Positions 41,461 through 61,422 of a stretch of DNA of 64,000 nucleotides are shown one piece after another. Source of the DNA: Cytobacillus oceanisediminis 2691. GTDB taxonomy: Bacteria > Bacillota > Bacilli > Bacillales > Cytobacillaceae. The notes under the pieces were generated by a model, which saw only the letters and a program-made list of their open reading frames with translations, ran no database searches and had not been told where the DNA came from. The stretch is taken from positions 62,001 through 126,000 of the forward strand of contig NZ_VEEP01000006.1 in NCBI RefSeq assembly GCF_007678455.1. The letters are read 5' to 3'. How positions within the stretch are numbered: position 1 is the first letter of the stretch; the number at the start of each line of letters is the position of its first letter. The translations under genes were made by a program, and so were the position numbers.

Positions 41461-41577
41461 TTATTGGCGAAAATCTGATTTTATCGACCACATTTTTAAT
41501 TATTTCGGCGGATTTTCAAATATATCGACCACTTTTCCGAATATATCGACCACATTTACAGATATATCGACCAAGTC
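41461..41577. repeat. 21-bp-period intergenic array A (core TATCGACCA)
   Basis: TATCGACCA occurs at 41482, 41523, 41544 and 41565, with degenerate units at about 41461 and 41503. Spacings are 41 (two units), 21 and 21 nt. The core extends to ATATCGACCAC; the remaining ~10 nt of each unit vary. The array lies between the convergent chrA and iadA genes and ends 4 nt before the iadA terminator. See arrays B, C and D for the same layout with other cores. Confidence 0.85.
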
Positions 41578-41580
41578 AAA

Positions 41581-41612
41581 AAGAACCTTGACCGCTCATG
41601 GTCAAGGTTCTT
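41581..41612. terminator. Terminator of iadA (symmetrical)
   Basis: AAGAACCTTGACC pairs perfectly with GGTCAAGGTTCTT around GCTCAT; it lies 4 nt downstream of the iadA stop and could act on both strands. Confidence 0.85.
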
Positions 41613-41616
41613 CTAA

Positions 41617-42786
41617 TCATTCAAATGTCCCTCTCACTAGCGGAACTTTATCTTCTACCATTACTTTTCCCATTGCGATGACCGTATCAATCTCAAGGTC
41701 CTTATCCAGCAGCACCAGATCTGCGTCACGTCCTGTTTGGATCCAGCCTTTTTGTGAAAGCTTTAAAACGGCTGCCGGGTTCGCCGTGATGACACGGATG
41801 GCCGTTTCGAGCGGAATCCCCTCTGATAAAACGGCTTCCTTAACAGCATAATATAAAGACGAAACCTGGCCAATCTGCAAACCGATTAGTTCACCATTTT
41901 GATCAAAATCTGGCAGGCTCGCCTGTCCGTCCGATGTGAAGGTAATCTGGCTGATGTCGACGCCCGCGTCGAGCATCCGCTTGAGACCAACACTGCATTT
42001 GACCTCTCCCTCTTCCAAAAACTTTGGAATGGAACTGGTAGTGAAATCAACCCAGCCGCCTTTTTTTGCGTATTCAATGCCCGCTTCAAACAGATGCGGA
42101 TTCCGGTTGATATGGGTCGGATAAAATTGCCGGATCGGGATGTCGGTACTCTTGACGACCTCCTCGATCAGCTTCAGATGGTCGAGGCTGTCGCCGACAT
42201 GGACATTGACGATGCCGCTTTTTCCAGCGAGCATCCCGCCGATCCTCGCTGCCGAAGCGATTTTGGCCAGCTCCTCGGCAGTCGGCTGGGATGAACGATG
42301 ATCGGCGATCGCAATCTCGCCCGCTCCGATTACTTTATCAATCAAAATGATGTCGTCCTCAATTTTGCCGGTAAGCGTTTTGACAGGGACCTGATAGGAG
42401 CCCGTTTGCACATAGGTAGTGATGCCTTCTTCTTCTAACGCTCTTGCCTTGGCAATCAAGCTCGGCATCGTTCGTGTCGTGCCGTCAGTGCCGAGAACAC
42501 CGACCAGCGTCGTGATGCCGGCAGTTGTCGCCTGGGTCAGCTGGATTTCCGGTGTCCTGGTACGGAACCCGCCTTCTCCGCCGCCGCCAATCAGGTGGAC
42601 ATGTGAATCGATGAAGCCTGGTACAACCGTCTTGCCCTCAGCATCAATAACTTTCACATCGACGAACTTTTCTGGAACTTCGATTTCATCCTGGATGAAT
42701 CCGATTTTCCGATCGACAATTAAAATATCTTTTTTACCAATGTGATCTGGTGCGTAAATCTCGCCATTCTTAATAAGTGTCAGCAT
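41617..42786 (-). CDS. iadA: Isoaspartyl dipeptidase (beta-aspartyl peptidase)
   Basis: Cleaves beta-aspartyl (isoaspartyl) dipeptides that arise from protein ageing. 389 residues, the usual length for IadA. Amidohydrolase motifs: PGFIDSHVHLIGGGGEGG (HxH), the AIADHRSSQP stretch, NVHVGDSLDHL, FYPTHINRN, and TFTSDGQAS (catalytic Asp). Start at ATG 42786, with GGAGGAGAG close upstream. Divergent from the T-box and symporter unit. Confidence 0.93.
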   Translation of the reverse strand: MLTLIKNGEIYAPDHIGKKDILIVDRKIGFIQDEIEVPEKFVDVKVIDAEGKTVVPGFIDSHVHLIGGGGEGGFRTRTPEIQLTQATTAGITTLVGVLGTDGTTRTMPSLIAKARALEEEGITTYVQTGSYQVPVKTLTGKIEDDIILIDKVIGAGEIAIADHRSSQPTAEELAKIASAARIGGMLAGKSGIVNVHVGDSLDHLKLIEEVVKSTDIPIRQFYPTHINRNPHLFEAGIEYAKKGGWVDFTTSSIPKFLEEGEVKCSVGLKRMLDAGVDISQITFTSDGQASLPDFDQNGELIGLQIGQVSSLYYAVKEAVLSEGIPLETAIRVITANPAAVLKLSQKGWIQTGRDADLVLLDKDLEIDTVIAMGKVMVEDKVPLVRGTFE

Positions 42787-42904
42787 GCACTCTCCTCCAA
42801 CTTCCTGCTGTTTCCTCAATTATAGCTTGTTTCAATTCTCTGAAAAAGAAGCTTGACAGTATATTCTTATCATACTATAATTTCGAGTATTACATTTTAA
42901 TAAG

Positions 42905-43160
42905 TTGAAGCATTGAAGAGAGTTTATTAAGCCGGTCTCCCTGTTACTAGAGAATCAGTGGTTGGTGAAAACTGATACAAAGTCCTGGTGAATTTCGTTC
43001 TTGGAGCTTTTCCTTTAATACACATTGTAAAAAAGGAACGGACTTGGCCGTTATCCAATTAACTTGAGCGGGAAGCGTATTTTTGCTTCCAAATAGGGTG
43101 GTACCGCGTGTTCAGCCACGTCCCTATCCAGATCGTTGGATAGCGGCGTGGCTTTTTATT
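42905..43160 (+). ncRNA. T-box riboswitch before the sodium symporter gene
   Basis: The invariant T-box AGGGTGGTACCGCG is at 43095-43108. It is followed by a strong terminator in which AGCCACGTCCCTATCC (from 43114) pairs with GGATAG-CGGCGTGGCT, ending in TTTTTATTTT. Upstream lies a long Stem I region. A candidate specifier is TTT/TTC at 42993-42996 in GGTGAATTTCGTTC, which would mean phenylalanine, but I could not fix the fold by eye. The T-box makes expression of the symporter respond to an uncharged tRNA. Confidence 0.93.
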
Positions 43161-43213
43161 TTGCCCGGACGTCCAGCGGCTCAGCTGAAATAGAGAGAAA
43201 AGGGAGAATCAAC

Positions 43214-44551
43214 ATGGAGAAAGAGCAATGGTCATCAAAGATTGGATTTATCCTTGCCGCAGCCGGTTCGGCAATCGGAATCGGGGCAATCTGGAAGCTT
43301 CCTTATGTGACGGGGGTCAGCGGCGGCGGAGCGTTTTTCCTCATGTTCATTTTATTTTCGCTGTTCATCGGCCTGCCGCTGCTGCTTGCGGAATTCGTGA
43401 TCGGCCGCAGTACTGGAAAAGAAGCGATCCGTGCTTATCTAGAAATCGCGCCTAAAAGCAAATGGTATTTGATCGGGATACTCGGTGTCGTTACCAGCTT
43501 CGTGCTGCTTAGCTTTTACAGTGTGGTTGGCGGCTGGATCAGTGTTTATTTTGTAAAGGGGCTTGCTGGCGGAGTGATCCAGGAAGGCGCCGATTATGGT
43601 GAGCTGTTCGGGACGACGATCAGCGATCCGTGGAGTGTACTCGCCGCGCAGGCTGCGTTCTTGCTGATGACCATCGTGGTAGTCGCCAAAGGCGTCCAGT
43701 CTGGCATTGAAAAAGCGAGTAAAATCCTAATGCCAGCCCTGTTCCTGCTTTTTATCATCTTGATCGTCCGTTCACTCACGCTCGATAACGCGTTAACTGG
43801 AGTAAAGTTCTTCCTCGCTCCGGATTTTTCAAGCATCACCTCCGAAAGCATCTTATTCGCGATGGGACAATCCTTTTTCTCCCTGAGCATCGGGGTATCA
43901 GTAATGGTGACATACAGCTCCTACCTGCCGAAAAAAGGCAGCCTTGTACAGCCGGCCCTGTCAGTTGTCGGGATGAACCTGTTCATCGCACTGCTTGCCG
44001 GACTGGCGATCTTTCCGGCTGTATTCTCACTCGGATTTGAACCTGCTGAAGGTCCGGGACTGCTATTTGTCGTCCTGCCAGCGGTTTTTGAAAAAATGGT
44101 TTTCGGCGAGCTGTTCCTGCTGCTGTTTTTAGCGTTATTCCTGTTCGCGACACTGACATCGGCATTCTCGATGCTTGAAATTGTCGTCGCCACTCTTGCA
44201 AAAGGCGATCGTAAAAAGCGCGCCAGATTCGCATGGATTGCCGGCGGATTGATCTTCCTTCTCGGCATCCCATCCGCCCTGGCTTTTGGAATTCTGGCGG
44301 ATGCAACGGTTTTCGAAAAAAACATCTTTGACACAGCCGACTTCCTGGTAAGCAATATCCTGATGCCGCTTGGAGTCCTGCTGATTTCGATTTTCGTTCC
44401 GCTGAAAATCAGGAAAGAAGTTTTAAGGCAGGAGCTTCTCCAACATTCCAAAACAGGCAGCTGGCTTTTTAATCTCTGGTACAATGTCATGAGGTTCATC
44501 GTTCCAATCGTCATCATCATTGTATTCCTTGATTCACTAGGCCTCATATAA
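43214..44551 (+). CDS. Sodium:neurotransmitter-symporter (SNF) family amino acid transporter
   Basis: 445 residues, about eleven to twelve membrane segments. The SNF signature near the N-terminus is [34 protein letters not shown], as in LeuT-like bacterial transporters such as YocR and YhdH. It imports an amino acid with Na+. Start ATG 43214, with AGGGAG upstream; the frame open back to 43136 lies in the T-box terminator. The leader ties it to starvation for one amino acid, possibly phenylalanine or another aromatic. Confidence 0.93.
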
Positions 44552-44554
44552 AAG

Positions 44555-44584
44555 GAAGCTGGCATTACGCCAGCTTCTTTTTTA
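44555..44584 (+). terminator. Terminator of the symporter gene
   Basis: GAAGCTGGC/GCCAGCTTC 9-bp stem with ATTAC loop, then six T. Confidence 0.94.
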
Positions 44585-44679
44585 GTTGATACATACAATC
44601 ACAAAATCTATCATCAGTATAATTTTTCCCTATAATGCAAAACCTTTTGTGTAGATGACTGGCATCGGAGGGATTTTTT

Positions 44680-46185
44680 ATGTTCTTCAAGAAACAGAAA
44701 CGTGAAGCTCCTGACAGCATGAATGAAAAAAATCTCGACGACAAGGAGTTAATCCCCGTATCCAAAGATGAATTCATCAACATTATGAAAGAGCGTCTTC
44801 ATCATAGTGCCGACCTAAACACAAAAGAATTGGCCAATGGTTTCACCCTTGTTTTCCTCGACACTTTGACTGATAAGAAAATGTTGAATGAGGATATTTT
44901 ATCGCGTTTGGCTGGCACCTCTGCTACACCGGATGAAGCTTTAAAGAGCATAACGGTTTCGAGCACTTTGAAGCATAAGTACGTTGAAGATGGTGTCGAT
45001 TCGATACTGAAAGGTGCCGTACTGGTCCATTCTACTGGATACCCTGTCATTATCAGCGCAGTTGTGGCTACCCAGGAAAACCGCTCATTGACCAGGCCGG
45101 AAAATGAATCCCAGGTGATGGGACCGCAAATCGCCTTCAATGAGAGTCTGGCAACGAATATATCACTGCTTCGCCGTTTTCTTACAAATGCCAATCTATG
45201 CAATGAAAGTTTTAAAGTAGGAAAACAAACGAATTCTGCGGTTGCGCTGCTTTATTTAAAAGATATTGCCGATGAAGAGATGGTTGACAGAATGCGTGAA
45301 CGGATTCAGAGCATCGACATCGATTCAGTCCTTGATAGCTCTTTCTTGATCCAGCTTATCGAAGACAATTCACTGGCAATTTTCCCGCAAATGCTGCTGA
45401 CGGAAAGACCAGATCGTGCCTGTGCATGGCTTTTGAACGGAAAAGTAGTGGTACTGGTGGATGGCAGTGTCCAGGTCATCGGAGCACCGCAAACCTTCAT
45501 CGAATTTTTTCAGAGCATGGAGGATGAAAGTGTCAGATGGCAGATTGCCACTTTTATCAGGATCCTGCGCGTTTTTTCCATGATAGTCTCGATTTTTTTC
45601 ACCGCCATTTATGTTGCGTCTTTGACATTCCATTACGAAATCATTCCACAGACATTGCTGGTCCCGCTCGGTGAATCAAGATCGCGTGTTCCTTTTCCGC
45701 CCATTATTGAGGCATTATTGCTCGAAACAATGATTGAGCTCCTCCGGGAAGCAGGAGCCCGGCTGCCAACGAAAGTCGGCCAGACAATGGGTATCGTAGG
45801 CGGTATTGTAGTTGGTACAGCTGCAGTAGATGCCGGATTCACAAGCAACATCCTGATCATCATCATTGCCGTTAGCGCCCTTGCCTCTTTTACAACACCA
45901 AACTATACGATGGGCAATGTCATACGGATCCTGCGCTTTCCCTTAATTATTTTAGCTGGTTTTTGGGGTTTTTACGGGCTGATGTTCGGCTTTTGTTTCC
46001 TGCTGATCCACCTGATCCGCCAATCCAGTCTTGGAAGCCCATTTCTGGCTCCTTTTTACCCGCCGAGATTTGCAGACTGGCGGGACAGCATCATCCGTCT
46101 CCCGATTGGCTGGACCAATAGTCGTCCAAAACAGGCAAGACCAGATGACAAAATGAAATTCAGAGCCCAAAAAACCAAAGAATAA
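44680..46185 (+). CDS. Spore germination receptor subunit A (GerA family)
   Basis: 501 residues. A soluble N-terminal domain (1 to about 260) is followed by about five membrane segments and a basic C-terminal tail. GerA-family motifs include TGYPVIISAVV..., QVMGPQIAFNESLATNISLLRR (with the usual GPxxxFxE region) and SRSRVPFPPIIEALLLETMIELLREAGARLP. It is a component of an inner-membrane germinant receptor that releases the spore from dormancy. First gene of an A-B-C operon; the usual SigG promoter could not be identified. Confidence 0.93.
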   Translation: MFFKKQKREAPDSMNEKNLDDKELIPVSKDEFINIMKERLHHSADLNTKELANGFTLVFLDTLTDKKMLNEDILSRLAGTSATPDEALKSITVSSTLKHKYVEDGVDSILKGAVLVHSTGYPVIISAVVATQENRSLTRPENESQVMGPQIAFNESLATNISLLRRFLTNANLCNESFKVGKQTNSAVALLYLKDIADEEMVDRMRERIQSIDIDSVLDSSFLIQLIEDNSLAIFPQMLLTERPDRACAWLLNGKVVVLVDGSVQVIGAPQTFIEFFQSMEDESVRWQIATFIRILRVFSMIVSIFFTAIYVASLTFHYEIIPQTLLVPLGESRSRVPFPPIIEALLLETMIELLREAGARLPTKVGQTMGIVGGIVVGTAAVDAGFTSNILIIIIAVSALASFTTPNYTMGNVIRILRFPLIILAGFWGFYGLMFGFCFLLIHLIRQSSLGSPFLAPFYPPRFADWRDSIIRLPIGWTNSRPKQARPDDKMKFRAQKTKE

Positions 46186-46201
46186 AGATGTGGTGTTATG
46201 A

Positions 46202-47329
46202 ATGAAAATCCTGATCGAGGTAAAACCGCAGAGTATGGTCAATACCATGCTGCTCGTATTCGTGATTTTTTCCATGCAGGTAGGCGTAGGCATCCAGGGA
46301 TTCCAGAGGGTCATTTATATGGAAGCAAAGCATGATGCCTGGATTTCCGTTATTTTGAGTGGTGTTGCAACTGCAATCGTTGGGTTCATCATGGTCAAGA
46401 CTTTGAAAGCCTATGAGAATACGGACCTCTATGGAATTCAATATGATGTACTTGGAAAATGGTTCGGGAACATGCTCAATATCTTATTTGTCATTTATTT
46501 TCTTGGAGGATTCCACATCATTGTCCGAAATTATATTGAAGTTATCCAGGCGTGGATTTTCCCTGAAGTACCGGACTGGCTGATTTCCCTTACTCTTCTC
46601 TACCTTGTCTACTACGGACTAAATGGAGGACTGAGGACAGTGGTAGGAGTATGCTTCTTTAGTGTAGGTCTGTCCTTCTGGCTAATTCTCCTGCTTGCCT
46701 ATCCCTTCCAGTTCGCCAATTGGGATTACTTATTTCCGATGTTCGAAGCGAGCATTCCGGAAATTTTAAGGGGTACAAAACAAATGACATTCACTGTCGT
46801 CGGCTTTGAGATCATCTATGTAATCTATCCTTTTTTAAAAGAAAAAGACAAGGTCCACAAATATATGCAAGTAGGCCTTTTTTTTACCACCATCCTTTAC
46901 CTCACGATTATGGTGGTCTCCCTGGCCTATTTTAGCGGAGGACAGTTGGAACGGACGATTTGGGGAACTCTCTCTCTCTTAACAATCGTCCGCTTTCCTT
47001 TCATAGAAAGATTTGAATACGTGGCTATTACCTTCTGGGTGTTGCTGATCATGCCGAACTTGATGCTCTATATGTGGGCGGCTACCCGAGGTATTTCAAG
47101 GGTTTTTGGTAAAAAGGAACAGAAAGTCAGTTGGAAGTTGCTGATATTTTTATTCTTGACCCTGCTTTATCCACTCACCAGGGTACAAATCAATATGATG
47201 AACGATTATTTCGCAAAAGGTGCCTTCTATATCGTGTTTATCTATCCATTCCTGCTATTCGGTGCAGTTCTAGTCAAAAAGAAATTTTTCCGAAAAAAGG
47301 ATGAGGCCAATGTACAAAAAAATGAATAA
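46202..47329 (+). CDS. Spore germination receptor subunit B (GerB/endospore germination permease)
   Basis: 375 residues with about ten membrane segments of the APC fold. Typical stretches are MQVGVGIQGFQRVIYMEAKHDAWISVILSG and NWDYLFPMFEASIPEILRG. GerB subunits bind the germinant amino acid in the membrane. It starts 16 nt after the A-subunit stop and its end overlaps the C-subunit gene. Confidence 0.93.
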   Translation: MKILIEVKPQSMVNTMLLVFVIFSMQVGVGIQGFQRVIYMEAKHDAWISVILSGVATAIVGFIMVKTLKAYENTDLYGIQYDVLGKWFGNMLNILFVIYFLGGFHIIVRNYIEVIQAWIFPEVPDWLISLTLLYLVYYGLNGGLRTVVGVCFFSVGLSFWLILLLAYPFQFANWDYLFPMFEASIPEILRGTKQMTFTVVGFEIIYVIYPFLKEKDKVHKYMQVGLFFTTILYLTIMVVSLAYFSGGQLERTIWGTLSLLTIVRFPFIERFEYVAITFWVLLIMPNLMLYMWAATRGISRVFGKKEQKVSWKLLIFLFLTLLYPLTRVQINMMNDYFAKGAFYIVFIYPFLLFGAVLVKKKFFRKKDEANVQKNE

Positions 47330-48434
47330 AATCATCATTGCGATCCTTGTCATCATCATTTCCGGCTGTGCTGATCCGAAAACATTGGAGCGAATGGGTT
47401 TGGTCACAACAATCGGATATGATACGACAGAAGATAAAAATGTTCTTGTAACAATGGTACTGTTGCAAATTGATCCAGAGGCAGCTCAGAATTCCATTAT
47501 CCTTTCCGCAAAATCAGAGACTAGCAAAGGGGCGAAAAACAAAGCTGATTTAAAAAGCCCTAAAAAGCTGCAATCAGGTCAACTCCGGGTAGCACTAGTC
47601 AGCGAAGAGTTCGCACAGCTAGGTATCATCAATCTCGTAGACACCCTGGCACGGGATCCGGCTATCAGCAATCTCACCTATCTTGCAGTCGTTGAAGGCA
47701 GTACACATAAACTGCTCAAACAGAAAAACGCGGGGTTTTCCGATATCAGCCAGCTCATTTATAAGGAACTAGATCAAAATATAAAAGGGGAAAAAATCCC
47801 CTCGTCAACTCTGCAGGAAGTCATGCAAGATTATTATGCTGCAGGAACTGACCCGGTTTTGCCCACTATAAGGGGGGAAAACGGAGAAATTATCATTACC
47901 GGCATGGCGTTGTTCAAGAATGATAAAATGGTCAGCAAGGCCAATCCCGATGAAGCATTTTTTCTGAAATTGGTCAATGACCGATATAAAACAGGAGCAA
48001 TAGAAATAACCATCCCAAAAGGCGGTTTTGGTATTCCGGAGTCAATTAAAGCTCCTGACCAAATGTCCGTGGTCCTGGATACGATCACAAGCAAAAGTGA
48101 TATCAACCTGCTCAACAAAGACAACCTCCAGTTCGAAATGAAAATCAAATTAACAACAAGATTGCTTGAGGTCAATCAAGTAATGGACATTAAGAACCCA
48201 GTACTACTAAAAAAACTGGAAGACAGACTTAGTGAAAAAATCACCTCCGAAATTGAGAACCTGGTTGAAAAGGCGCGCGTGGCCGGAGCAGATCCATTCG
48301 GGTTTGGCGAAATTTACCGTAAAAGCGTCAGAGGCACAAACCTGACTGCATCGAAATGGCACAAGATGTATCCGGATAGCAAGGTTAATGTAAAGGTGGA
48401 CTTCGAGATTCTGCGGACAGGGGTTGTGGAATAA
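47310..48434 (+). CDS. Spore germination receptor subunit C (GerC lipoprotein)
   Basis: 374 residues from ATG 47310 (an in-frame ATG at 47301 adds three residues). Lipoprotein signal IIIAILVIIISGC, then a Ger(x)C domain with LERMGLVTTIGYD and the C-terminal KWHKMYPDSKVNVKVDFEILRTG. It is the outer-face lipoprotein of the receptor and depends on Lgt. It overlaps the B-subunit gene by 20 nt. Confidence 0.93.
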   Translation: MYKKMNKIIIAILVIIISGCADPKTLERMGLVTTIGYDTTEDKNVLVTMVLLQIDPEAAQNSIILSAKSETSKGAKNKADLKSPKKLQSGQLRVALVSEEFAQLGIINLVDTLARDPAISNLTYLAVVEGSTHKLLKQKNAGFSDISQLIYKELDQNIKGEKIPSSTLQEVMQDYYAAGTDPVLPTIRGENGEIIITGMALFKNDKMVSKANPDEAFFLKLVNDRYKTGAIEITIPKGGFGIPESIKAPDQMSVVLDTITSKSDINLLNKDNLQFEMKIKLTTRLLEVNQVMDIKNPVLLKKLEDRLSEKITSEIENLVEKARVAGADPFGFGEIYRKSVRGTNLTASKWHKMYPDSKVNVKVDFEILRTGVVE

Positions 48435-48441
48435 TACGAAA

Positions 48442-48474
48442 AAAGCGGGAGTCTCGTGTGATGGCTCCCGCTTT
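48442..48474. terminator. Terminator between gerC and minJ (convergent)
   Basis: AAAGCGGGAG/CTCCCGCTTT 10-bp stem with A/T flanks on both strands. Confidence 0.88.
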
Positions 48475-48480
48475 GGTTTC

Positions 48481-49810: not shown

Positions 49811-49936
49811 AATCTCTATGGAATCCGGGTTATTCTCTACGGTTTGGTCTGGAATCTCTACGGAATGCTGCTTATTCTCTACGGAAGAGGCTATAATCTC
49901 TACGAAATGAAGCATATTCTCTACGTTTACCATAAA
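49811..49936. repeat. 21-bp-period intergenic array B (core TCTCTACGGA)
   Basis: Six contiguous 21-bp units start exactly at 49811, 49832, 49853, 49874, 49895 and 49916. Each opens AATCTCTA or ATTCTCTA alternately, followed by CGG or TGG and about ten variable bases. One frame reads as alternating heptads beginning NLYG and ILYG (NLYGIRVILYGLVWNLYGML...), but no convincing start signal serves it. The array ends 5 nt from the ctpB terminator. Confidence 0.93.
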
Positions 49937-49941
49937 CTAAC

Positions 49942-49976
49942 AAAAAAAACACTGCACCCCTGACTAAGGTACAGCG
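49942..49976 (-). terminator. Terminator of ctpB
   Basis: On the minus strand CGCTGTACC pairs with GGTGCAGTG (three G-U pairs) and TTTTTTTTG follows. Confidence 0.8.
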
Positions 49977-50002
49977 TCTTCTAAAAATGGAGTTGTAGTT
50001 GA

Positions 50003-51648: not shown

Positions 51649-51655
51649 GAATTTA

Positions 51656-53097: not shown

Positions 53098-53991
53098 TTA
53101 CACCTTCAAGAACTTGCGGACGGACATGAGACTTCCCCAGATTCCAATTGCCGCACCCATGATAATCAGGATCGCAGACAGCTGGTACACAAACGGGTTG
53201 AATTCTAGCAATCTTATGAAATGATCTTTTAGCTTTTCGTTCAAGAAGTCGTAAGCGTAATAATACGCTGCTGATACGACGGCAATCGGCACCACTGCTC
53301 CAAGGATACCCAGCCATAGGCCTTCAAGGAAGAATGGCCATCTGATAAAACCATTTGTGGCCCCAACGAGTCTCATAATCTCAATCTCTCGTTTACGCGC
53401 CATGATTGTAATCTTAATCGTATTAGAAATCAGGAACATTGCAGTAAAAAGAAGTCCGACAATCAAGACGAGTCCGACATTACGGCTTACTTTTATAAAA
53501 CCGAAAAGTTTCTCCACCTTGCCCTGACCATATTTTACAGTTGCTACATACTCCAGCTTCTCTATTTGCTTCGCGACTTTCATTGTGTCAGTAGGATTTT
53601 TCGTCTTTACGACGAACACATCGTTTAAAGGATTGTCCTGCTCAAATAACTGGAAGGCTTCCCCTTCATCTCCCAGACTGTTAATCAGGCTTTCGAGTTC
53701 TTTTTCCTTCGGAGAATAGGTCACTTTTTTAATTCCAGATACCTGGTTGATCCGCTGTTCCAATACCTTTTTATCTTTGTCGTTCGCAGCTACATCCACA
53801 TGGACTCGGATTTCTACATCCTCCTCGATTGTGGTTGCGACTTTATTTAAATTCATCATAATGACGAAAAAGACACCGACCAAAAGCAAGGTAACCGTTA
53901 CGGCACTTACGGATGCGAACGTCATCCAGCCATTCCGGCCTAAGCTTTTAAAGCTTTCACGAATGTGGCGGCGGAATGTTCTAGCTTTCAT
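53098..53991 (-). CDS. ftsX: FtsX, membrane subunit of the FtsEX cell-wall hydrolase regulator
   Basis: 297 residues from ATG 53991 (AAAGGTGAT upstream). Four membrane segments: one near residue 25-50, a large extracellular domain (about 55-170) that contacts wall hydrolases, then three more. The cytoplasmic start RRHIRESFKSLGRNGWMTFAS is typical. Overlaps ftsE by 11 nt. With FtsE it transmits ATP-driven shape change to the outside hydrolase, here probably the neighbouring M23 protein. Confidence 0.96.
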   Translation of the reverse strand: MKARTFRRHIRESFKSLGRNGWMTFASVSAVTVTLLLVGVFFVIMMNLNKVATTIEEDVEIRVHVDVAANDKDKKVLEQRINQVSGIKKVTYSPKEKELESLINSLGDEGEAFQLFEQDNPLNDVFVVKTKNPTDTMKVAKQIEKLEYVATVKYGQGKVEKLFGFIKVSRNVGLVLIVGLLFTAMFLISNTIKITIMARKREIEIMRLVGATNGFIRWPFFLEGLWLGILGAVVPIAVVSAAYYYAYDFLNEKLKDHFIRLLEFNPFVYQLSAILIIMGAAIGIWGSLMSVRKFLKV

Positions 53992-54667
53992 ATCCGTAAT
54001 CACCTTTCATTTCATCACGCGCAATCCGGCCGTTCTCTATCGCGATGACGCGATGCTTGATTGTGTTGACGATTTCTTTGTTGTGGGTGGCCATGACAAT
54101 CGTGGTTCCCCTCATATTAATTTCTTCGAATATGTTCATAATTTCCCATGAAGTGTCCGGGTCAAGGTTACCAGTTGGCTCATCGGCGATTACCACTTTT
54201 GGTGCGTTCACTATTGAACGAGCGATGGCAACACGCTGCTGCTCCCCGCCTGAAAGCTCAGTCGGAAGCGATCTGGCTTTATGCTTCAACCCGACTAGAT
54301 CCAAAGTTTCCATTACTCGCTTTTTGATATATTGCGGCGATTCCTCAATAACCTCCATCGCGAACGCGACATTTTCATAGACTGAAAGAGTATTGAGCAA
54401 TTTGAAGTCCTGGAATACGACGCCAATATTTCGGCGCAGCAATGGTACTTTGCTGTCCTTAAGCTTTGCGAGATTAACACCATTTATAATGATGGAACCC
54501 TTAGAAGGCTTCACTTCACGGTACATCATTTTTATAAAAGTAGATTTCCCAGCACCGCTGGGTCCTACCACGTATAAAAATTCACCTGCATCTATATGAA
54601 CATTAATTCCATTTGCGGCCATGATACCGTTGGAATAAGTCTTGTAAACATCCTGCATATCAATCAT
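53981..54667 (-). CDS. ftsE: FtsE, ATPase subunit of FtsEX
   Basis: 228 residues from ATG 54667, with AAGGTGAT close upstream. ABC ATPase motifs: [38 protein letters not shown] and MATHN. First gene of ftsE-ftsX, followed by the M23 gene and ctpB-minJ, the B. subtilis order. Confidence 0.97.
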
Positions 54668-55070
54668 TTTTTGTATCACCTTAGATAGTTAGTCTTATCA
54701 CTCGGCTTTTCTTCGACAATTTGTAACAAACCTATTATAGCATCTAGCTCTATCAAATAAACCCTTTTATATATTACAGTTTCTTTTCAAATTGAACAAA
54801 AAGTCCCATTATATTCCTCTGAAGGGTAATATATCTACTAATTCACAAAGCATTTCACTTGCCAATCTAGCTATTTACCAAGTAAAATGCACTATTTGCA
54901 GCAAGTGTGTATTTGTCGAATTTTTAGTTTTATTACACATGTGTTACGAGATTTTGTCAAAACTTGTATGTACAAATTGTGAAGCTTGCTGAATTGCTAA
55001 ATAATTTGGCGATTTTTCTAAAATGCATAAGGACAGCATTTTACCTGACAGCAGACTGGAAAAATAAGCG
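54668..55070. other. Gene-free stretch upstream of ftsE
   Basis: About 400 nt of AT-rich sequence between ftsE and the cccB terminator. It should carry the ftsE promoter. I see no clear palindrome, riboswitch or gene. A 66-codon open frame (54792-54992) with several Cys residues has no ribosome site and is not called. Confidence 0.6.
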
Positions 55071-55103
55071 CAAAAAAAACGCCCTGATGATGATCAGAAC
55101 GTT
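55071..55103 (-). terminator. Terminator of cccB
   Basis: AACGTTCTGAT pairs with ATCAGGGCGTT (two G-U pairs) around CATC on the minus strand, then TTTTTT. Confidence 0.85.
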
Positions 55104-55115
55104 TCCTTTTAAATG

Positions 55116-55427
55116 TTATTTTTTGTTTGCCAGCCATTCAGCAACTGCAGATGCATCGTCACCTTCAAGTAATTTTGGAGGCATTGACCCTTTACCATTG
55201 GCGATTGTACTTTCAATCTCATCCTGGGATAGACGTGAACCTACATCACTTAATTTTGGCCCTACGCCGCCTTCAAGATTTCCGCCATGGCAGCTTGAAC
55301 ATTTTTGGTTAAAAAGCTTTTCCGGATCTGCACCAGCTTTGTCGCCGCCAGCTTCATCGCCGCCACCGCCGCAGGCTGCCAGTGCCAAGGAGGTTCCCAT
55401 TAATAGAGCTAATAATTTCTTCTTCAA
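55116..55427 (-). CDS. cccB: Cytochrome c551, lipoprotein
   Basis: 103 residues. Lipoprotein signal ([14 protein letters not shown]), a Gly/Asp/Ala linker, then a small class-I cytochrome c with heme motif CSSCH and axial Met in KGSMPP. It is anchored on the outer face of the membrane and passes electrons from the bc complex toward cytochrome oxidase. Position between ftsE and the YitT-family gene matches B. subtilis cccB. Confidence 0.95.
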
Positions 55428-55478
55428 ACTTAACTCCCCCTAAGAAAATTTTGCATACACGACTATTTTATACCAATA

Positions 55479-56342
55479 CTAAGCCCTTTTAAAACCCTCA
55501 CCCAATACCTCTGAAGCATCCATTACAATCACAAATGCAGCAGGGTCAATGGATTGAACCAATTGTTTCAATTTTGTGAACTCCGTCTGGTCCACTACAC
55601 ACATAATGATTGGCCGTTCTTGATCGGTATAGCCGCCGTATGCTGATAGTTTTGTCACTCCGCGGTCAATTTTATTCAAAATCGCTTCACGAACTTCATC
55701 CTGGCGGTTCGTGATGACCATCGCCATCTTCGAGCGACCGATACCAACCTGCACAAGGTCGATGGTTTTACTAGTCACATAAAGCCCGATCAAAGCATAA
55801 AGACCTCGTTCAATATCAAAGACAATCGCTGCAGACAATACAATCAGCCCATCAATCAACGCCACGCAGGTTCCAAGTGAAAGTCCCGTGTACTTATGGA
55901 TGATTTGCGCGGCCAAATCCGTACCGCCAGTTGATGCATTTCCTCTGAATACAATCCCAAGGCCCAGACCGACACCAATACCGCCGAACAATGACCCAAG
56001 CAAAGGATCGAGAGTCCAAGGCTTCACATCATTCGTCAGGAACACAACAAATGGAAGAAAAATGGTCCCTGCAAGAGTTTTATACCCATATTGCCTTCCA
56101 AGTAAAACAACCCCGGCAATAAACAACGGAATATTAAATGCCCACTGCACATACGCTGGCTCCCAGCCAAGCGTCGCATCCAAAATTGTACTGATCCCGC
56201 TCACTCCGCCTGAAGCAACACGGTTTGGCAGCAGGAACACATTAAACGATATAGCCACAATCCCTGAACCTATCAACACATATACATATTCAATCAGCTT
56301 GTCCAAAGCTGGATTCATCTTTTGATTCCGCCGTTTTTTCAC
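55479..56342 (-). CDS. yvjA: YitT/DUF2179-family membrane protein (YvjA)
   Basis: 287 residues from GTG 56342 (AAAGGGG 8 nt upstream). Five to six membrane segments ([46 protein letters not shown]), then a C-terminal DUF2179 domain (about 205-285; GVTKLSAYGGYTDQERPIIMCVVDQTEF). Family function is unproven; some members are tied to spore properties. Synteny with cccB and prfB supports YvjA. Confidence 0.9.
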   Translation of the reverse strand: MKKRRNQKMNPALDKLIEYVYVLIGSGIVAISFNVFLLPNRVASGGVSGISTILDATLGWEPAYVQWAFNIPLFIAGVVLLGRQYGYKTLAGTIFLPFVVFLTNDVKPWTLDPLLGSLFGGIGVGLGLGIVFRGNASTGGTDLAAQIIHKYTGLSLGTCVALIDGLIVLSAAIVFDIERGLYALIGLYVTSKTIDLVQVGIGRSKMAMVITNRQDEVREAILNKIDRGVTKLSAYGGYTDQERPIIMCVVDQTEFTKLKQLVQSIDPAAFVIVMDASEVLGEGFKRA

Positions 56343-56607
56343 TGTCCTATCCCCTTTTCCCATTAATGCCGTCAGTGAGTATAGCATGTGTCGAATTTTC
56401 TGTAAACGCTAGCAGTGCGCCGTATTAAAGGATGAAAGAAAGACTTCGATTATATATGAAGAGGTACGCCGTCTTTTAATAGGCTGCCCCGGGTCAATTA
56501 GGAAAAGAAAGATTTTAAAGCTAATTTTTTTGACTTCTCTGGGTGAGTTTGTGAAATTATGAACAATTTTTGACGTTTCTTTAAATACCCTTACCCCTAG
56601 TCGTACT

Positions 56608-56624
56608 TTGTGATATATTTCACG
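56608..56624. promoter_or_regulatory. Rex- or Fnr-like site upstream of the CoA-disulfide reductase gene
   Basis: TTGTGATATATTTCACG is a near-perfect palindrome. It fits the Rex operator pattern TTGTGAA-N4-TTCACAA loosely, and the Fnr/CRP pattern TGTGA-N6-TCACA with one mismatch. Either would link the downstream redox gene to NADH level or oxygen. Confidence 0.5.
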
Positions 56625-56642
56625 TATAAGGAGGCGGTCATA

Positions 56643-56684
56643 TTGATTAGTCTTTCCTGTAATAAGATGAAATTATTTTTTTAA
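56643..56684 (+). CDS. Possible 13-residue leader peptide
   Basis: A TTG-started frame encoding MISLSCNKMKLFF with a strong AAGGAGG (56628-56634) 8 nt upstream. It ends 53 nt before the start of the large fusion gene, which has its own AAAGAGGG. An excellent ribosome site with no long gene behind it suggests a translated leader. A single Cys in such a short peptide before a sulfur-transfer gene is suggestive only. Confidence 0.4.
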   Translation: MISLSCNKMKLFF

Positions 56685-56737
56685 CAAGGATTGCTCAACG
56701 CTACACAATAAAATTCTCCAGAAAGAGGGTAATATAG

Positions 56738-59305
56738 ATGGCTAAAAAAGTGGTAATCGTAGGTGGAGTTGCTGGCGGAGCTACAACAGCTGCCCGGTTG
56801 AGAAGATTGGATGAACAAACAGAAATCGTGATGATCGAACGCGGTGAATACATTTCTTTTGCCAACTGCGGCCTTCCTTATTATATCGGCGGTGCCATCC
56901 AGGAGCGCGATGCATTGCTTGTGCAGACAGTTGAAGGCATGTCTAAAAAGTTCAATATGGACATCCGCAACCTAAGCGAAGTGACGCGAATTGACCGTGA
57001 ACGCAAGGTAGTGGAAATCCATGATTTAAAAACAGGTAAAACATATGAAGAAAATTATGATGTACTGGTTCTATCACCTGGAGCGAGTCCTATTAAACCT
57101 CCGATTCCGGGTATCGATGAAGCTGAAGCATTGTTCACACTTCGCAATATTCCGGACACTGATAAAATCAAGGCATATGTCGATGAGCGGAAGCCGATGA
57201 AAGCAACAGTCATCGGCGGCGGTTTCATCGGTGTCGAAATGGCCGAAAACCTTTGGGAACGCGGCGTCGAAGTGACACTTGTCGAGATGGCTGACCAGAT
57301 CATGGCGCCGATCGACTTTGAGATGGCTTCTATTTTACACCAACATCTACGGGAAAAAGGCGTGAACCTGATCCTAGAAGATGGTGTGAAATCTTTTGAA
57401 AACAACGGTAAACTGATCAACCTGAATAGCGGCAAACAAATCGATACTGATCTGGTAATACTTGCGATTGGCGTTACTCCTGAAAATAAATTGGCTAAGG
57501 AAGCAGGCCTGGAGCTTGGACTTCGCGGTGCAATCCGTGTTAATGAAAGATTGCAGACAGCCGATGAAAGCATCTACGCTATCGGTGACGCGATTGAAGT
57601 AAAAGATTATATCAACGGCCAGGCGACTCACATTCCGCTCGCATGGCCGGCCAACCGCCAGGGACGCATCGTCGCTGACCATATCAACGGCATCGACTCC
57701 AAGTACCAGGGAACACTCGGAACATCCATTGCGAAGGTGTTTGACATGACAGTTGCCGCAACAGGCAATAACGAAAAGACATTGAAGCGCCTTGGCATTT
57801 CTTACGATGTCGTTCACGTTCACCCAAGCTCTCACGCTGGCTACTATCCAGGCGCCTTCCCTATCGCACTTAAATTGATCTTTGACCGCGAGACAGGAAA
57901 AATCTTTGGAGCTCAGGCGGTGTCTTATGATGGCGCCGACAAACGAATCGATGTTTTAGCAACTGCCATCAAAGGCGGCATGACGATTTTTGACCTTCCG
58001 GATCTTGAGCTGGCATACGCGCCGCCATACTCTTCTGCAAAGGATCCAGTCAACATGGCGGGCTATGCAGCGAAGAATATCGCTGAAGGTCTTGTGGAAA
58101 CCGTTCAATGGCATGAAATCAATGACATCCTTGCAAACGGCGGCTACCTGATTGACGTCCGCGAGCCAATCGAGCGCGACATGGGCCTGATTGAGGGTTC
58201 TGTCAACATCCCGCTTGGCGAGCTGCGCGACCGCCTAGACGAGATTCCGACGAAAGAAGTGTATGTATACTGCCAGGTCGGCCTGCGCGGGTACCTTGCT
58301 TCTCGTATCCTGAAGCAGGCTAGGTTCAATGTTCGCAACCTGGATGGCGGATACAAGACTTACTCTTGCGTGTTCGAGCCAGATGCGAGTGAAAACTGTG
58401 GTACACCAATTAGCGATAATGGTGTGGCTCAGCGCAATCTTGCGATGGAAGAGATTGCTGCGGGTGCGGCCCAGAGCAGTGTTGGATTGGCCGTTGAGGC
58501 GGCTCCAGTTGCACCGGCAGCTCCAGTTGCTCCACCGACTGTAAAAACCACCCTTGATGCCTGCGGCTTATCCTGCCCTGGCCCAATCATGAAGGTGTAC
58601 AAAACAATCGGTGACATGAAGGACGGCGAGGTGATGGAAGTCCATGCAACTGACCCAGGCTTCGCGAAGGACATCAAGGCATGGTGCGAAAAGACCGGCA
58701 ACAAGCTGGTCAGCAACAAGTTTGAAGATAAGAAATTCAAGGCGCAAATCATGAAAGGAAACGTCGTTGTGCCTATGAATACCATGGCAGCACCGGTGGA
58801 AGTTCCAACCGATGTGCCAACAGCCGCCCCTGCCAAAAACGGTGCGACAATGGTCGTGTTCAGCGGTGACCTTGATAAAGCCATCGCAACCTTCATCATC
58901 GCATCCGGAGCCGCGGCGATGGGTAAAGAGGTAACTTTGTTCTTCACCTTCTGGGGACTGAACATCTTGAAGCGCAACGACGCACCGGCCACCGAGAAGG
59001 ATATGATGGCAAAAATGTTCAGCATGATGATGCCGAAAGGCGCGAACGACCTGCCATTATCCAAGATGAACATGGGCGGCATGGGCGCCAAGATGATCAA
59101 GACCGTCATGGCCAACAAAAATGTCGACAGCCTCGAAACCTTAATGAAAAACGCTATGGACGCCGGTGTTAAGCTTGTCGCCTGCGGCATGAGCATGGAC
59201 CTCATGGGGATTTCCAAAGAAGAGTTAATCGACGGAGTCGAAATCGGCGGAGTTGCAGCATATCTTGGAGATGCTGAGGATTCTGGATTGAATTTGTTTA
59301 TATAG
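56738..59305 (+). CDS. CoA-disulfide reductase / rhodanese / TusA / DsrE-like fusion
   Basis: 855 residues in four parts. (1) FAD/NAD(P)H disulfide reductase (1 to about 445) with GGVAGGATTAARLRR, catalytic single Cys44 in SFANCGLPYY, and a second nucleotide motif GGGFIGVEMAE; this is the CoA-disulfide or persulfide reductase type. (2) Rhodanese (about 455-545) with active Cys512 in YCQVGLRG. (3) TusA-like (about 603-675) with CGLSCPGP (Cys609, Cys613). (4) A DsrE-like C-terminus (about 695-855; MVVFSGDLDKAIATFIIASGAAAMGKEVTLFFTFWGLN and LVACGMSMDLMGISKEEL). Together these could reduce a persulfide or polysulfide and hand the sulfane sulfur along fixed Cys relays. Single gene. Confidence 0.93.
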   Translation: MAKKVVIVGGVAGGATTAARLRRLDEQTEIVMIERGEYISFANCGLPYYIGGAIQERDALLVQTVEGMSKKFNMDIRNLSEVTRIDRERKVVEIHDLKTGKTYEENYDVLVLSPGASPIKPPIPGIDEAEALFTLRNIPDTDKIKAYVDERKPMKATVIGGGFIGVEMAENLWERGVEVTLVEMADQIMAPIDFEMASILHQHLREKGVNLILEDGVKSFENNGKLINLNSGKQIDTDLVILAIGVTPENKLAKEAGLELGLRGAIRVNERLQTADESIYAIGDAIEVKDYINGQATHIPLAWPANRQGRIVADHINGIDSKYQGTLGTSIAKVFDMTVAATGNNEKTLKRLGISYDVVHVHPSSHAGYYPGAFPIALKLIFDRETGKIFGAQAVSYDGADKRIDVLATAIKGGMTIFDLPDLELAYAPPYSSAKDPVNMAGYAAKNIAEGLVETVQWHEINDILANGGYLIDVREPIERDMGLIEGSVNIPLGELRDRLDEIPTKEVYVYCQVGLRGYLASRILKQARFNVRNLDGGYKTYSCVFEPDASENCGTPISDNGVAQRNLAMEEIAAGAAQSSVGLAVEAAPVAPAAPVAPPTVKTTLDACGLSCPGPIMKVYKTIGDMKDGEVMEVHATDPGFAKDIKAWCEKTGNKLVSNKFEDKKFKAQIMKGNVVVPMNTMAAPVEVPTDVPTAAPAKNGATMVVFSGDLDKAIATFIIASGAAAMGKEVTLFFTFWGLNILKRNDAPATEKDMMAKMFSMMMPKGANDLPLSKMNMGGMGAKMIKTVMANKNVDSLETLMKNAMDAGVKLVACGMSMDLMGISKEELIDGVEIGGVAAYLGDAEDSGLNLFI

Positions 59306-59312
59306 TATTGGG

Positions 59313-59341
59313 AGCGGCCTTCTTAGGAGGGCTGCTTTTTT
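59313..59341 (+). terminator. Terminator of the CoA-disulfide reductase fusion gene
   Basis: AGCGGCC/GGGCTGCT stem followed by TTTTTT, about 10 nt after the stop. Confidence 0.85.
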
Positions 59342-59364
59342 CTGATTTTTTCCTTATTTAGGAA

Positions 59365-59469
59365 GACGGTGCAATTATCTCGATTATTGGCGCAATTAAT
59401 TAGGAGGACCGTGCAATTATTGCAAAACATGGTGCAATAACCTTAAACAACGGTGCAATTATCTCTTTT
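59365..59469. repeat. 21-bp-period intergenic array C (core GTGCAATTA)
   Basis: Five contiguous 21-bp units start at 59365, 59386, 59407, 59428 and 59449. Each has three variable bases, then (C/G)GTGCAAT or GGCGCAAT, then about ten variable bases. It begins 23 nt after the terminator of the fusion gene. Array D, on the far side of the NERD gene, has the same core in the same orientation. Confidence 0.93.
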
Positions 59470-59623
59470 TACTAACAGAATAATTTTTCCAGTAGCAAAA
59501 GTGAACAGCTATATTCGATAAAAAGTCTACTTTTTGACCTTTTTCTACCTTCGCCCCTCCACAAAAACGACTTGCGTACTGTGCTAAGCAGATTTGCGCA
59601 ATATATTAGCGTAAATCTAGATT

Positions 59624-60150
59624 TTAATTGCAAGTTACCTTTTTTACTCCTTACTTGTTTCGTGCTTGCTTACTGAATTAAGCTCCTCATCTGGAATATT
59701 CTCCAAACCTCGAGCTTGGGGTTGTTGTAAATAGGTAATTGAGGGGTTTTCCGATGTTTAATTGAAAGTTACCTTTTTTAACTGTTTACTTGTTTTGTGC
59801 TTGCTTACTGAATTAAGCTCCTCATCCGGAATATTCTCCTCACCTCGCGCCTGGGGTTGTTGTAAATAGGTAATTGAGGGGTTTTCCGATGGTTAATTGA
59901 AAGTTACCTTTTTTAACTGCTTACTTGCTTCGTGCTTGCTTACTGGAATACTCCTCACCTGGATTATTCTCTCACCTCGCGCCTGGGGTTGTTGTAAATA
60001 GGTAATTGAGGGGTTTTCCGATGGTTAATTGAAAGTTACCTTTTTTACTTCTTACTTGTTTCGTGCTTGCTTACTGAATTAAGCTCCTCATCTGGAATAT
60101 TCTCCTCACCTCGAGCCTGTGGTTGTTGTAAATAGGTAATTGAGGGTTGG
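59624..60150. repeat. Four tandem copies of a ~134-bp sequence
   Basis: Copies begin TTAATTG at 59624, 59758, 59893 and 60025 (periods 134, 135 and 132). Each runs through AAGTTACCTTTTTTA, a CTTGTTTCGTGCTTGCTTACTG-like part, CTCCTCATCTGGAATATTCTCC, GGGGTTGTTGTAAATAGG and TAATTGAGGGGTTTTCCGATG. The last copy is cut short after GGTAATTGAGGG. In each unit GTTACC and GGTAA could pair across about 90 nt. No open frame spans it. It fills the region upstream of the NERD gene. The 154 nt between array C and copy 1 show nothing recognisable. Confidence 0.93.
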
Positions 60151-60268
60151 GGCAGTAAAATGTCCTTTTTTAAATAACAACAACCGAGTAAATAATTCTC
60201 CCTCTTTAACAGGGTTTTTACCGATTATGTCGAATAATACACTCATCAACCTAAAGGAGTGACAATGT

Positions 60269-61225
60269 TTGATAGCGAAACACAGAACGGTCCCCCGCAG
60301 AATCCTCGTTAATGAAGCGCTGCTTAGAAGAACTTCTCCAACCCACCCAAAGAGGCAAGATATCTTGAAAGATTTACTGATTAAAAGAGCAGGATTTAAA
60401 GGCGAACAGGAGATGGATTATTATCTCAGCCTTTTGAACGAAAACGATTTTCATATCCTCCAGGATCTCCGTATTCCACATGGCACTAATTACTTCCAAA
60501 TTGATTTCCTACTTTTATCAACCAAATTCGCATTGCTGATCGAAAATAAGAATATGCCTGGAAGCATCGAATTTGACCCTGCCTTCAAACAAGTTTTCCG
60601 AAGATATAATGACACAACGGAAGTATACGACTGCCCGGTTGACCAGGTAAAAAGACAAGTGTATCAATTCAGAAGTTGGCTGAAGAAACACAACATCACC
60701 CCACCTCCTTTAGAATTCCTCGTCACCTATAGTAATCACGGCTCCATCCTTCAAAATCCCAGTAAAAATCAAGAAATTTATCATCGAGTTTGTAAAGGAG
60801 GACATTTGGTCTTTAAAGTTGACGAATTTCAAAATCGTCACCAAAGAGAAGTCCTTTCGCTCAAAGATATAAAAAAATTAACGAAACTTTTGATTAAAAG
60901 CCATGAACCAGAGAAAGCCGACATTAACAAGTATAATTTAGCCCCTTCTGACATCATTCCTGGTATTCAATGTCCAACCTGTGAGCACTTCCACATGGAA
61001 AGAATCTCAAGGAAATGGTACTGCTCCCATTGCGGAATTACTTCATCTCATGCGCATGAACAAGCTATTCTTGATTACTTTTTGCTAATTGGGCCAACGA
61101 TGACAAATAAGCAATTGAGGAATTTCCTCTGCTTGCCGTCACGAAGTACTTCTACCAACTTATTGAGGAATATGAGTTTACAGCATACAGGTAGTACAAA
61201 AAATAGAGTGTATTTTCAAGCATGA
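60269..61225 (+). CDS. NERD-domain (nuclease-related) protein with C-terminal zinc ribbon
   Basis: 318 residues, no signal or membrane segment. NERD domain (about 40-150) with GFKGEQEMDYYL (Glu46), YFQIDFLLLS (Asp79), LLIENKN (Glu92, Lys94) and DCPVDQVKRQVYQFRSWL (Gln126). This is the order of a PD-(D/E)xK nuclease active site, all key residues kept. A zinc ribbon follows (Cys235, Cys238, Cys252, Cys255), then a helical tail rich in basic and Ser/Thr residues (RNFLCLPSRSTSTNLLRNM). TTG start at 60269, with AAAGGAG about 10 nt upstream. Substrate and role are unknown; NERD proteins are presumed to act on DNA or RNA. It is set between two 21-bp arrays and next to the 134-bp tandem repeats. Confidence 0.88.
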   Translation: MIAKHRTVPRRILVNEALLRRTSPTHPKRQDILKDLLIKRAGFKGEQEMDYYLSLLNENDFHILQDLRIPHGTNYFQIDFLLLSTKFALLIENKNMPGSIEFDPAFKQVFRRYNDTTEVYDCPVDQVKRQVYQFRSWLKKHNITPPPLEFLVTYSNHGSILQNPSKNQEIYHRVCKGGHLVFKVDEFQNRHQREVLSLKDIKKLTKLLIKSHEPEKADINKYNLAPSDIIPGIQCPTCEHFHMERISRKWYCSHCGITSSHAHEQAILDYFLLIGPTMTNKQLRNFLCLPSRSTSTNLLRNMSLQHTGSTKNRVYFQA

Positions 61226-61229
61226 TTAT

Positions 61230-61263
61230 AACCTCCTCTTCCATGTGGCCGAGGAGGTTTTTC
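61230..61263 (+). terminator. Terminator of the NERD gene
   Basis: AACCTCCTC/GAGGAGGTT 9-bp stem followed by TTTTT, 5 nt after the stop. Confidence 0.9.
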
Positions 61264-61275
61264 CATTATTAGGAT

Positions 61276-61422
61276 GACGGTGCAATTCTAGCAGCTTACA
61301 GTGCAATAATCTTGAATGAACGTGCAATTATTCTAGTTGATGGTGCAATTAGCTTCAAATAGGGTGCAATTATGACGTTTGACCGTGCAATTAATAAAAA
61401 CTGCAGCCCAATTAACACAAAA
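61276..61422. repeat. 21-bp-period intergenic array D (core GTGCAATTA)
   Basis: Seven contiguous 21-bp units start at 61276, 61297, 61318, 61339, 61360, 61381 and 61402, the last one degenerate. Units read NNN-(G/C/A)GTGCAAT followed by about ten variable bases. Read on the minus strand, one frame gives heptads such as LIAPSTR and IIARSFK, but it has no start signal. It lies between the NERD terminator (13 nt away) and the prfB terminator (touching). Confidence 0.93.

Follow-up and report, generated by a model that had tools for sequence, protein, structure and literature searches.

Arrays of the 20–21 nt class in the window

Two classes of tandem repeats that keep a constant unit size while their sequence varies have been described in Bacillus genomes. 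In the main text of Subirana and Messeguer (2021; PMC8161180), 176 genomes are reported to hold 781 repeats of 20–21 nt and 1886 repeats of 51–53 nt, B. selenatarsenatis being listed with 30 and 49 of them, respectively. The 20–21 nt repeats are presented there as mostly non-coding, with several families per genome that possess a short characteristic sequence, and the authors put forward nucleoid proteins, small RNAs and a length of two helical turns. Here, we analyze four intergenic arrays (A to D) from a 64,000-nt stretch of Cytobacillus oceanisediminis 2691 (contig NZ_VEEP01000006.1, positions 62,001–126,000; hereafter, the window) together with their counterparts in related genomes. The preliminary description of this stretch had treated the arrays as belonging to no named family; however, they fall into the 20–21 nt class as set out in the main text of PMC8161180, sharing with it a kept unit length, at least four repeats, a non-coding position and a short word common to each of several families per genome, so that the class was already described. 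To that main text, which lacks the words terminator, downstream, orientation and intergenic, the present analysis adds a leader and a tail, kept genomic sites, shifts of word dialects and scarcity near the terminus. In the literature searched, supplements of PMC8161180 aside, we found no account of the leader, narrow unit number and tail, of dialects at kept sites, of concerted base change or of the terminus scarcity of 21-nt arrays. Judging from sequence comparison, we give an even chance to the arrays being multivalent, helically phased sites of a DNA-binding factor with drifting specificity.

Direct inspection recovered all four arrays at the coordinates first reported, with their 21-bp period; A and B were also detected with period 21 by Tandem Repeats Finder (TRF), C and D being under its score limit. 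Array A (41461–41577, minus strand), from the GTCGATA class, has three copies of GGTCGATA in register, then a 20-nt variant unit (GCCGAAATA..), which is the one-base slip noticed earlier, then a fourth GGTCGATA and the tail GCCAATAAA. Array B (49811–49936, minus strand), from the GTAGAGA class, consists of six C(G/A)TAGAGA units of 21 bp and is spelled CGTAGAGA... on the word strand. Arrays C and D, spelled GGTGCAATTA... on the word strand, represent the GTGCAATT class on the plus strand. The former (59365–59472, units at 59365–59469) comprises five G(T/C)GCAAT units between a leader unit (TTTTTTCC..TTAGGAAGAC; 59346–59367) and a tail unit (TAACAGAATAATTTTTCCAG; 59473–59492), and the latter (61276–61422) has six GTGCAAT units and a degenerate one behind the leader unit TTTTTCCATTATTAGGATGAC (61259–61279), with no clear tail. 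The period is exact in B, C and D, and all four arrays are non-coding, being located between long open reading frames (ORFs).

In all four cases the order is gene, terminator, array, and the word runs in the direction of the upstream gene: iadA (terminator hairpin at 41581–41612, minus strand), ctpB (hairpin at 49951–49977, minus strand), a CoA-reductase/rhodanese fusion gene (terminator at 59314–59345, plus strand) and a NERD gene (terminator at 61230–61262, plus strand), the exact terminator ends being set by eye and the T-run of the last one doubling as the start of the leader of D. Our own uncalibrated finder, the source of all terminator calls counted here, places the terminator ends 1, 12, 21 and 13 bp ahead of A, B, C and D, near the range of 4–23 nt given initially.

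The four arrays are one element class, as had been proposed from their fixed period and locus-specific words. The window and 80 ctpB loci (1.67 Mb) were scanned for 8-bp words that recur at a constant period with a variable remainder. This revealed 95 clusters at period 21, some of them coding (heptads), versus one after shuffling in 2-base blocks; the other periods from 12 to 40 gave 0 to 22 clusters each, with period 12 as the runner-up (22 clusters). Coding repeats were rejected as an explanation: of 119 clusters in 119 sequences, the 30 located in ORFs of 150 codons or more were removed and 89 were retained.

Searches with the three fixed words of the window found GTGCAATT pairs in 16 of 61 genomes (14 of 20 within the genus), with no match in any genome for the reversed control. 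GTAGAGA pairs occur in 14 and GTCGATA pairs in 34 of the 61 genomes, the latter in 19 of 20 within the genus; the controls of these two words reach 2 per genome, so single matches are no evidence. The genome of the window itself (G000; 4.9 Mb in 477 contigs) has 11, 16 and 12 pairs for the three words, and most of the named genomes closest to it by ctpB belong to Mesobacillus species or to Bacillus sp. ISL isolates. Several GTCGATA arrays are close to contig ends, at a distance of a few hundred bases at most (L227 at the end of G000:C55, and G013:C2, C3 and C4), possibly adjacent to a repeated locus such as rRNA operons. Some of the loci (L numbers) are genomes of the set (G numbers): L040 and L171 have an identical array, and the spacers of L041, L043 and L044 are those of G004, G017 and G003, respectively. 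Gene names such as purF, purM, leuC and leuD were assigned by eye from translations.

Words, spacing and dialects at kept sites

The core sample comprises 62 arrays found with the three fixed words in 64 sequences, those sequences without three chained words contributing none. Under a chaining that permitted intervals of 20, 21, 22 and 42 only, the interval between words is 21 in 217 of 232 cases, 20 in ten, 42 (a unit skipped) in five and never 22; a whole-genome search permitting 19–23 has one GTGCAATT pair 22 apart among the pairs listed. The number of units is narrow. Half of the GTGCAATT arrays (18/36) contain five words, with six in eight arrays, four in seven, three in two and eight in one, and six words occur in 7 of 11 GTAGAGA arrays; 10 of 15 GTCGATA arrays have three chained words followed by variant units. 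A leader, TTTTcCA..ataGGatgA, stands ahead of the first word in the GTGCAATT class and a similar one, TTTT..TTTtaTGGAAAA, in the GTAGAGA class, and the GTCGATA class lacks one. Of the 36 GTGCAATT arrays, 13 have the tail TAAGAGAATAATTTTTCCAG by motif search; its distance from the array start is 109 bp (five units) in ten of them, 108 bp in two and 88 bp (four units) in one. In the GTCGATA class the tail follows an order of its own that ends in GCCAATAAA and is complete in 9 of 15 arrays as judged by eye. Besides the AT end of its word, each unit has another AT-rich patch, at a distance of about one helical turn (AT in 348/405 versus 395/810, 134/141 versus 106/235 and 133/140 versus 51/140), the phases having been picked after inspecting the data.

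Among 41 ortholog pairs with the same word, from 20 sites, mean identity is 95% in the word, 70% in the spacer and 80% in the flank, the word exceeding the spacer in 41/41, a contrast that is partly circular because the arrays were grouped by word. Free of that circularity, gaps per substitution in 21 ortholog pairs are half as frequent in arrays as in flanks (32/405 versus 182/1092, p = 1e-4). The length of the array is therefore guarded while the sequence of its spacers drifts. Within one genome, the median spacer identity is 0.42 for GTGCAATT arrays (204 pairs) and 0.48 for GTAGAGA arrays (10 pairs). Recent copying between sites, including near-identical copies of a miniature inverted-repeat transposable element (MITE), was rejected, as the 242 same-genome pairs of the sample top out at a spacer identity of 0.73, reached by the two L186 arrays at neighboring genes.

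A leader, a constant repeat and a variable spacer are likewise the parts of clustered regularly interspaced short palindromic repeats (CRISPR). Here, however, the word is 8–10 bp and the remainder about 11–13 bp, there are many loci per genome, and in place of spacer acquisition at the leader end the orthologous spacers are inherited with point changes at the mean identity given above. Plasmid iterons and centromere arrays of the ParR/TubR type are direct repeats of about two turns that are bound cooperatively by one protein. They occupy one site per replicon beside a rep or par gene, whereas the present arrays occupy many chromosomal sites, and no gene of the rep/par type was recognized by eye among the flanking ORFs of 20 loci.

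Grouping by flanks resolved 106 Mesobacillus arrays into 18 groups of at least two members and 23 singletons, the largest group merging neighboring sites and group sizes being possibly inflated by double listing of genomes. At such kept sites the word may differ between lineages. The site downstream of ctpB has GTAGAGA in the window, L040 (= L171), L046 and L230, GTAGTGA in L042, L045 and L061, GTGCAATT in L043 (the first of two arrays) and L184, and GGGCAATT in L044, and whichever word is used the array stands shortly after the terminator. Further words in relatives are GGGCAATT, GGGAGAWT, GAGAGATT, GGCGGAAT and GGGATTAAA; thus the core (C/G)GT-N-N-A proposed initially fits the three window words and does not extend to the whole class. 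The ctpB gene of L040 (JAGGQZ010000013.1) is 96% identical to that of the window, and its ctpB array is that of G013; the name Chryseobacterium sp. ISL-80 under which this record is deposited is probably mistaken. Downstream of ctpB, the loci L062, L063, L066 and L068, where no array is evident, retain a near-palindrome like TTTCCGCGGAAATA, which we take to be close to the Noc-binding site motif.

The purF–purM gap, examined by eye in 20 genomes, holds 21-nt arrays in 11, 52-nt units in three and no array in six, so both published repeat classes occupy one gap in sister species. Among the 21-nt arrays, eight are GTGCAATT-like (G009, G016, G061, G018, G005, G007, G015 and G002), two use GGGAGATT (G003 and G017) and one uses GGGAGAAT (G008). 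The 52-nt units, which carry a word and its near-inverse, number four in G012 (L245, 52 apart), two in G006 (L244) and one in G004 (L247). The genomes with no array in this gap are G019, G011, G013, G000, G014 and G001; a leader and one word remain in G013 and G000.

The whole repertoire of words also varies by lineage. GGGCAATT pairs were found in G003 (5), G017 (5) and G004 (1) among 21 genomes, and GGGAGAWT pairs in G008 (145, partly in duplicated blocks), G003 (16) and G017 (4), with 0–1 in the others. G003 and G017 retain 3 and 7 GTGCAATT pairs, and fixed-word searches found none of the three window words in G008. Long blocks of GGGAGAWT arrays recur about every 300–400 bases in the latter genome (C31:22178–23894 and C23:211581–212919).

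At two sites, leuC–leuD and the gap that separates a pair of protease genes, G003 and G017 have arrays that can be aligned with those of their relatives, with the same tail and like spacers, and the words of G003 and G017 have changed together. The T of GTGCAATT is missing in 20/20 G003/G017 units (two sites, five units each) and is kept in 39/45 in-register reference units (27/30 at leuC–leuD and 12/15 in the protease gap). The changed base differs between focal and reference arrays in 60/60 and 28/30 comparisons versus 13/75 and 2/15 among references, at leuC–leuD and the protease gap, respectively, the leuC–leuD count leaving out the reference rows of G018 and G006, whose register is shifted by one base. 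The other bases of the word differ in 13% versus 8% (leuC–leuD) and 10% versus 4% (protease gap), and the spacers in 39% versus 42% and 31% versus 25%, that is, with no or little excess.

Genomic placement of the arrays

The preliminary description had placed all arrays next to terminators and suggested comparing their distances with random positions. That comparison is positive: in 25/62 arrays the end of a terminator on the same strand is found no more than 30 bp upstream, and in 35/62 no more than 60 bp upstream, the corresponding rates at 3173 random intergenic positions being 5.3% and 9.1%. For terminators on the opposite strand, 13/62 arrays have one within 60 bp of their other end, versus 9.3% of the random positions. 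The upstream neighbor is co-oriented with the array in 45 of 61 cases (L227 has no upstream ORF), and the gaps are tandem in 30 co-directional and 11 counter-directional cases, convergent in 15 and divergent in five. The association with terminators is thus real and polar, yet not universal: arrays are also found in the purF–purM and leuC–leuD gaps, and the five divergent gaps among the 62 arrays equally fall outside a strict rule. Because arrays also sit inside operons, their placement after 3' ends more likely reflects tolerance than function. A strand rule based on word composition was abandoned as unreliable, several arrays being mis-signed (55 same and 31 opposite among 86 upstream neighbors), and polarity was recounted with the three fixed words.

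On the scale of the chromosome, 67 of 68 GTGCAATT loci (six genomes) and 23 of 23 GTCGATA loci (four genomes) are no further than 0.55 of the half chromosome away from parS, which served as the origin mark and is near the ends of single-contig records and further in for G018 and G015; this sample excluded GTAGAGA and, for GTCGATA, G015 and G061, with rounded lengths for G019 and G015. From the origin to the terminus quarter, 80 evenly spaced 20-kb stretches of G016, G009, G018 and G061 contain 10, 5, 7 and 1 clusters of the 21-nt class, three of these 23 being weak calls, the terminus one among them. The same stretches contain 10, 14, 14 and 8 clusters of the 52-nt class and 367, 427, 331 and 447 terminators. 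Arrays of 21 nt are therefore all but missing from the ~40% of the chromosome closest to the terminus, a part in which 52-nt arrays do occur. The latter, which correspond to the 51–53 nt repeats of the PMC8161180 main text and whose 52 bp make five helical turns, are a second class in the same genomes that shares the purF–purM gap; unlike the 21-nt arrays, they carry a word with its near-inverse and are not scarce near the terminus.

Noc-binding sites are a working analogy for this distribution: in B. subtilis, according to the relevant part of PMC4331003, about 70 dispersed sites of this sequence-specific DNA-binding protein are absent from the terminus region, which is matched by 90/91 GTGCAATT and GTCGATA loci. 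They are single palindromes, whereas the arrays here are direct repeats of asymmetric words. The core palindrome of the Noc-binding site is ATTTCCCGGGAAAT. The words themselves were rejected as Noc-binding sites on account of their asymmetry, and exact TTTCCCGGGAAA sites are few and separate from them (3–5 per genome in four genomes).

Two other features of the window were recorded. Downstream of array C, TRF detected a 135-bp unit repeated ~3.9 times with 91% matches (59624–60146), and pieces resembling it (GGGGTTG.TAAA..AGGTAATTG) precede C-site arrays at several other Mesobacillus loci. A T-box leader (Rfam RF00230, 124 bits) occupies 42904–43128, upstream of the ORF at 43136.

A putative word reader and its alternatives

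The helical phase, the guarded spacing, the drifting spacers and the words that change together and by lineage call for a trans-acting reader of the word. The best candidate for it is a DNA-binding protein, a seed-bearing RNA being possible. In the proposed mechanism, the array would be a multivalent DNA site, usually of five or six units spaced at exactly two helical turns, and each unit would present an 8–10 bp word in which a variable part is followed by an AT-rich, ATTA-like end. A leader unit stands ahead in the GTGCAATT and GTAGAGA classes and a tail unit behind in part of the GTGCAATT arrays. A putative sequence-specific factor, or a small family of them, would recognize the words from a single helix face, an arrangement that fits the 21-bp period as the preliminary description had pointed out, and may assemble cooperatively over about 110–150 bp. 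Selection would retain word and spacing and hardly the spacer sequence. Dialects would appear as the specificity of the factor drifts or is swapped between lineages, with the arrays following at old sites via base changes in all units or via array replacement. The arrays are found in gaps behind the 3' ends of genes, mostly right after the terminator, and such gaps probably tolerate them. The scarcity near the terminus points to a chromosome-organizing or cell-cycle-timing role rather than to local gene control.

Several observations weigh against this reading of the arrays as sites of a drifting DNA-binding factor. Spacer identity is at most 0.50 in 5 of the 41 ortholog pairs, near the level of unrelated arrays, and GTCGATA spacers share a consensus with a same-genome median of 0.64 (28 pairs), so that free spacers hold less for this class. 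Part of the arrays must be transcribed along with their operon. Several words coexist per genome, more than a single factor could account for. The concerted change was observed in a single pair of relatives, at two sites, and G019, which retains GTGCAATT at leuC–leuD, groups beside G017 (support 0.947 in a small tree of ~1.6 kb), so either the change arose on two occasions, or it was undone, or this part of the tree is incorrect. Whole-array replacement also occurs, since the purF–purM gaps of G000 and G061, members of one species, are unrelated between flanks that are 96.6% and 97.4% identical; at site C, the G017-like L043 and the G003-like L044 differ in the word and most spacers. Regarding the chromosomal distribution, the difference in distance between 21- and 52-nt arrays reaches p = 0.03 only, and the distance counts include orthologues, which depend on one another. 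There are also outliers: a GTGCAATT locus at 0.73 and, of the two GTAGAGA loci in G016, the one at 1.52 Mb, which maps to about 0.64. The origin bias may also follow conserved genes.

The alternative that survives best, though we consider it unlikely, is an element acting at the RNA level, namely arrays transcribed past a terminator or within operons that serve as a small RNA, a sponge or an element of the 3' untranslated region, with the word as seed for an RNA acting in trans. Dialects would likewise arise if the seed of that RNA changed, the purF–purM and leuC–leuD arrays are presumably transcribed, and the 30:11 bias in tandem gene pairs is in the sense direction; moreover, 52-nt repeats of B. 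coagulans are transcribed according to the main text of PMC8161180 and the relevant part of PMC8625621. However, the upstream gene is opposite in 16/61 arrays, RNA folding z averages of 0.10 and 0.20 over the 62 arrays give no folding signal, and the 21-bp phasing with avoidance of indels has no obvious RNA reason. A search of positions 41200–62000 with Rfam 15 (E up to 1) returned the T-box and a match below the gathering score inside a gene (56763–56931), with none over any array.

Dispersed non-autonomous, MITE-like mobile elements, whose conserved ends would target the T-runs of terminators (TTTTCC) and which some recombinase would move, are an improbable origin. The leader TTTTCC..AGGATGA and the tail ..TTTTTCCAG both contain TTTTCC, arrays are present or absent at orthologous gaps and replaced at some sites, and the GTCGATA arrays of one genome have the common spacer consensus mentioned above. 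Against such elements, the GTGCAATT and GTAGAGA arrays of one genome have no common spacers, and no target duplication was seen in the gaps inspected by eye. The 16 matches in viral contigs are 15 isolated pairs and one uniform repeat within an ORF, which speaks against mobility of this kind and led us to reject a phage origin.

Neutral or selfish minisatellites, in which slippage or local duplication makes decaying 21-bp units that lie beside terminators because insertions survive there, seem more improbable still. Units have indeed been duplicated, as seen in the eight-unit ctpB array of L061, the repeated spacers of G005 at purF–purM and the duplicated blocks of G008, and presence or absence varies among species. 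Nevertheless, decaying units would hardly be expected to show a narrow number with leader and tail, words so much better conserved between orthologues than spacers, or a base change shared by every word of an array and unaccompanied by extra spacer divergence, and period 21 alone stands out. Finally, protein-bound arrays acting as roadblocks or back-up terminators behind leaky intrinsic terminators would account for terminator adjacency and polarity, yet are very improbable as arrays at purF–purM and leuC–leuD would impede their own operon and scarcity near the terminus would be unexplained.

Taken further, the reading of the arrays as sites of a drifting DNA-binding factor leads to a speculative and rather doubtful proposal, in which they would be origin-side domain markers read by a fast-evolving DNA-binding family, a bacterial counterpart of rapidly co-evolving centromere DNA and its binders whose lineage dialects shift at old sites, and the 52-nt arrays would be a second, whole-chromosome code able to occupy the same gaps. 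With a conserved word, a far less conserved spacer, guarded spacing, dialects at kept sites and scarcity near the terminus, a described but unexplained repeat class becomes testable, and at one site the 21-nt and 52-nt classes are tied to the same genomic gap. Pairs of orthologous arrays that use two dialects offer a concrete bait for the reading factor, and the arrays are a natural experiment on the joint change of a DNA-binding specificity and its many sites.

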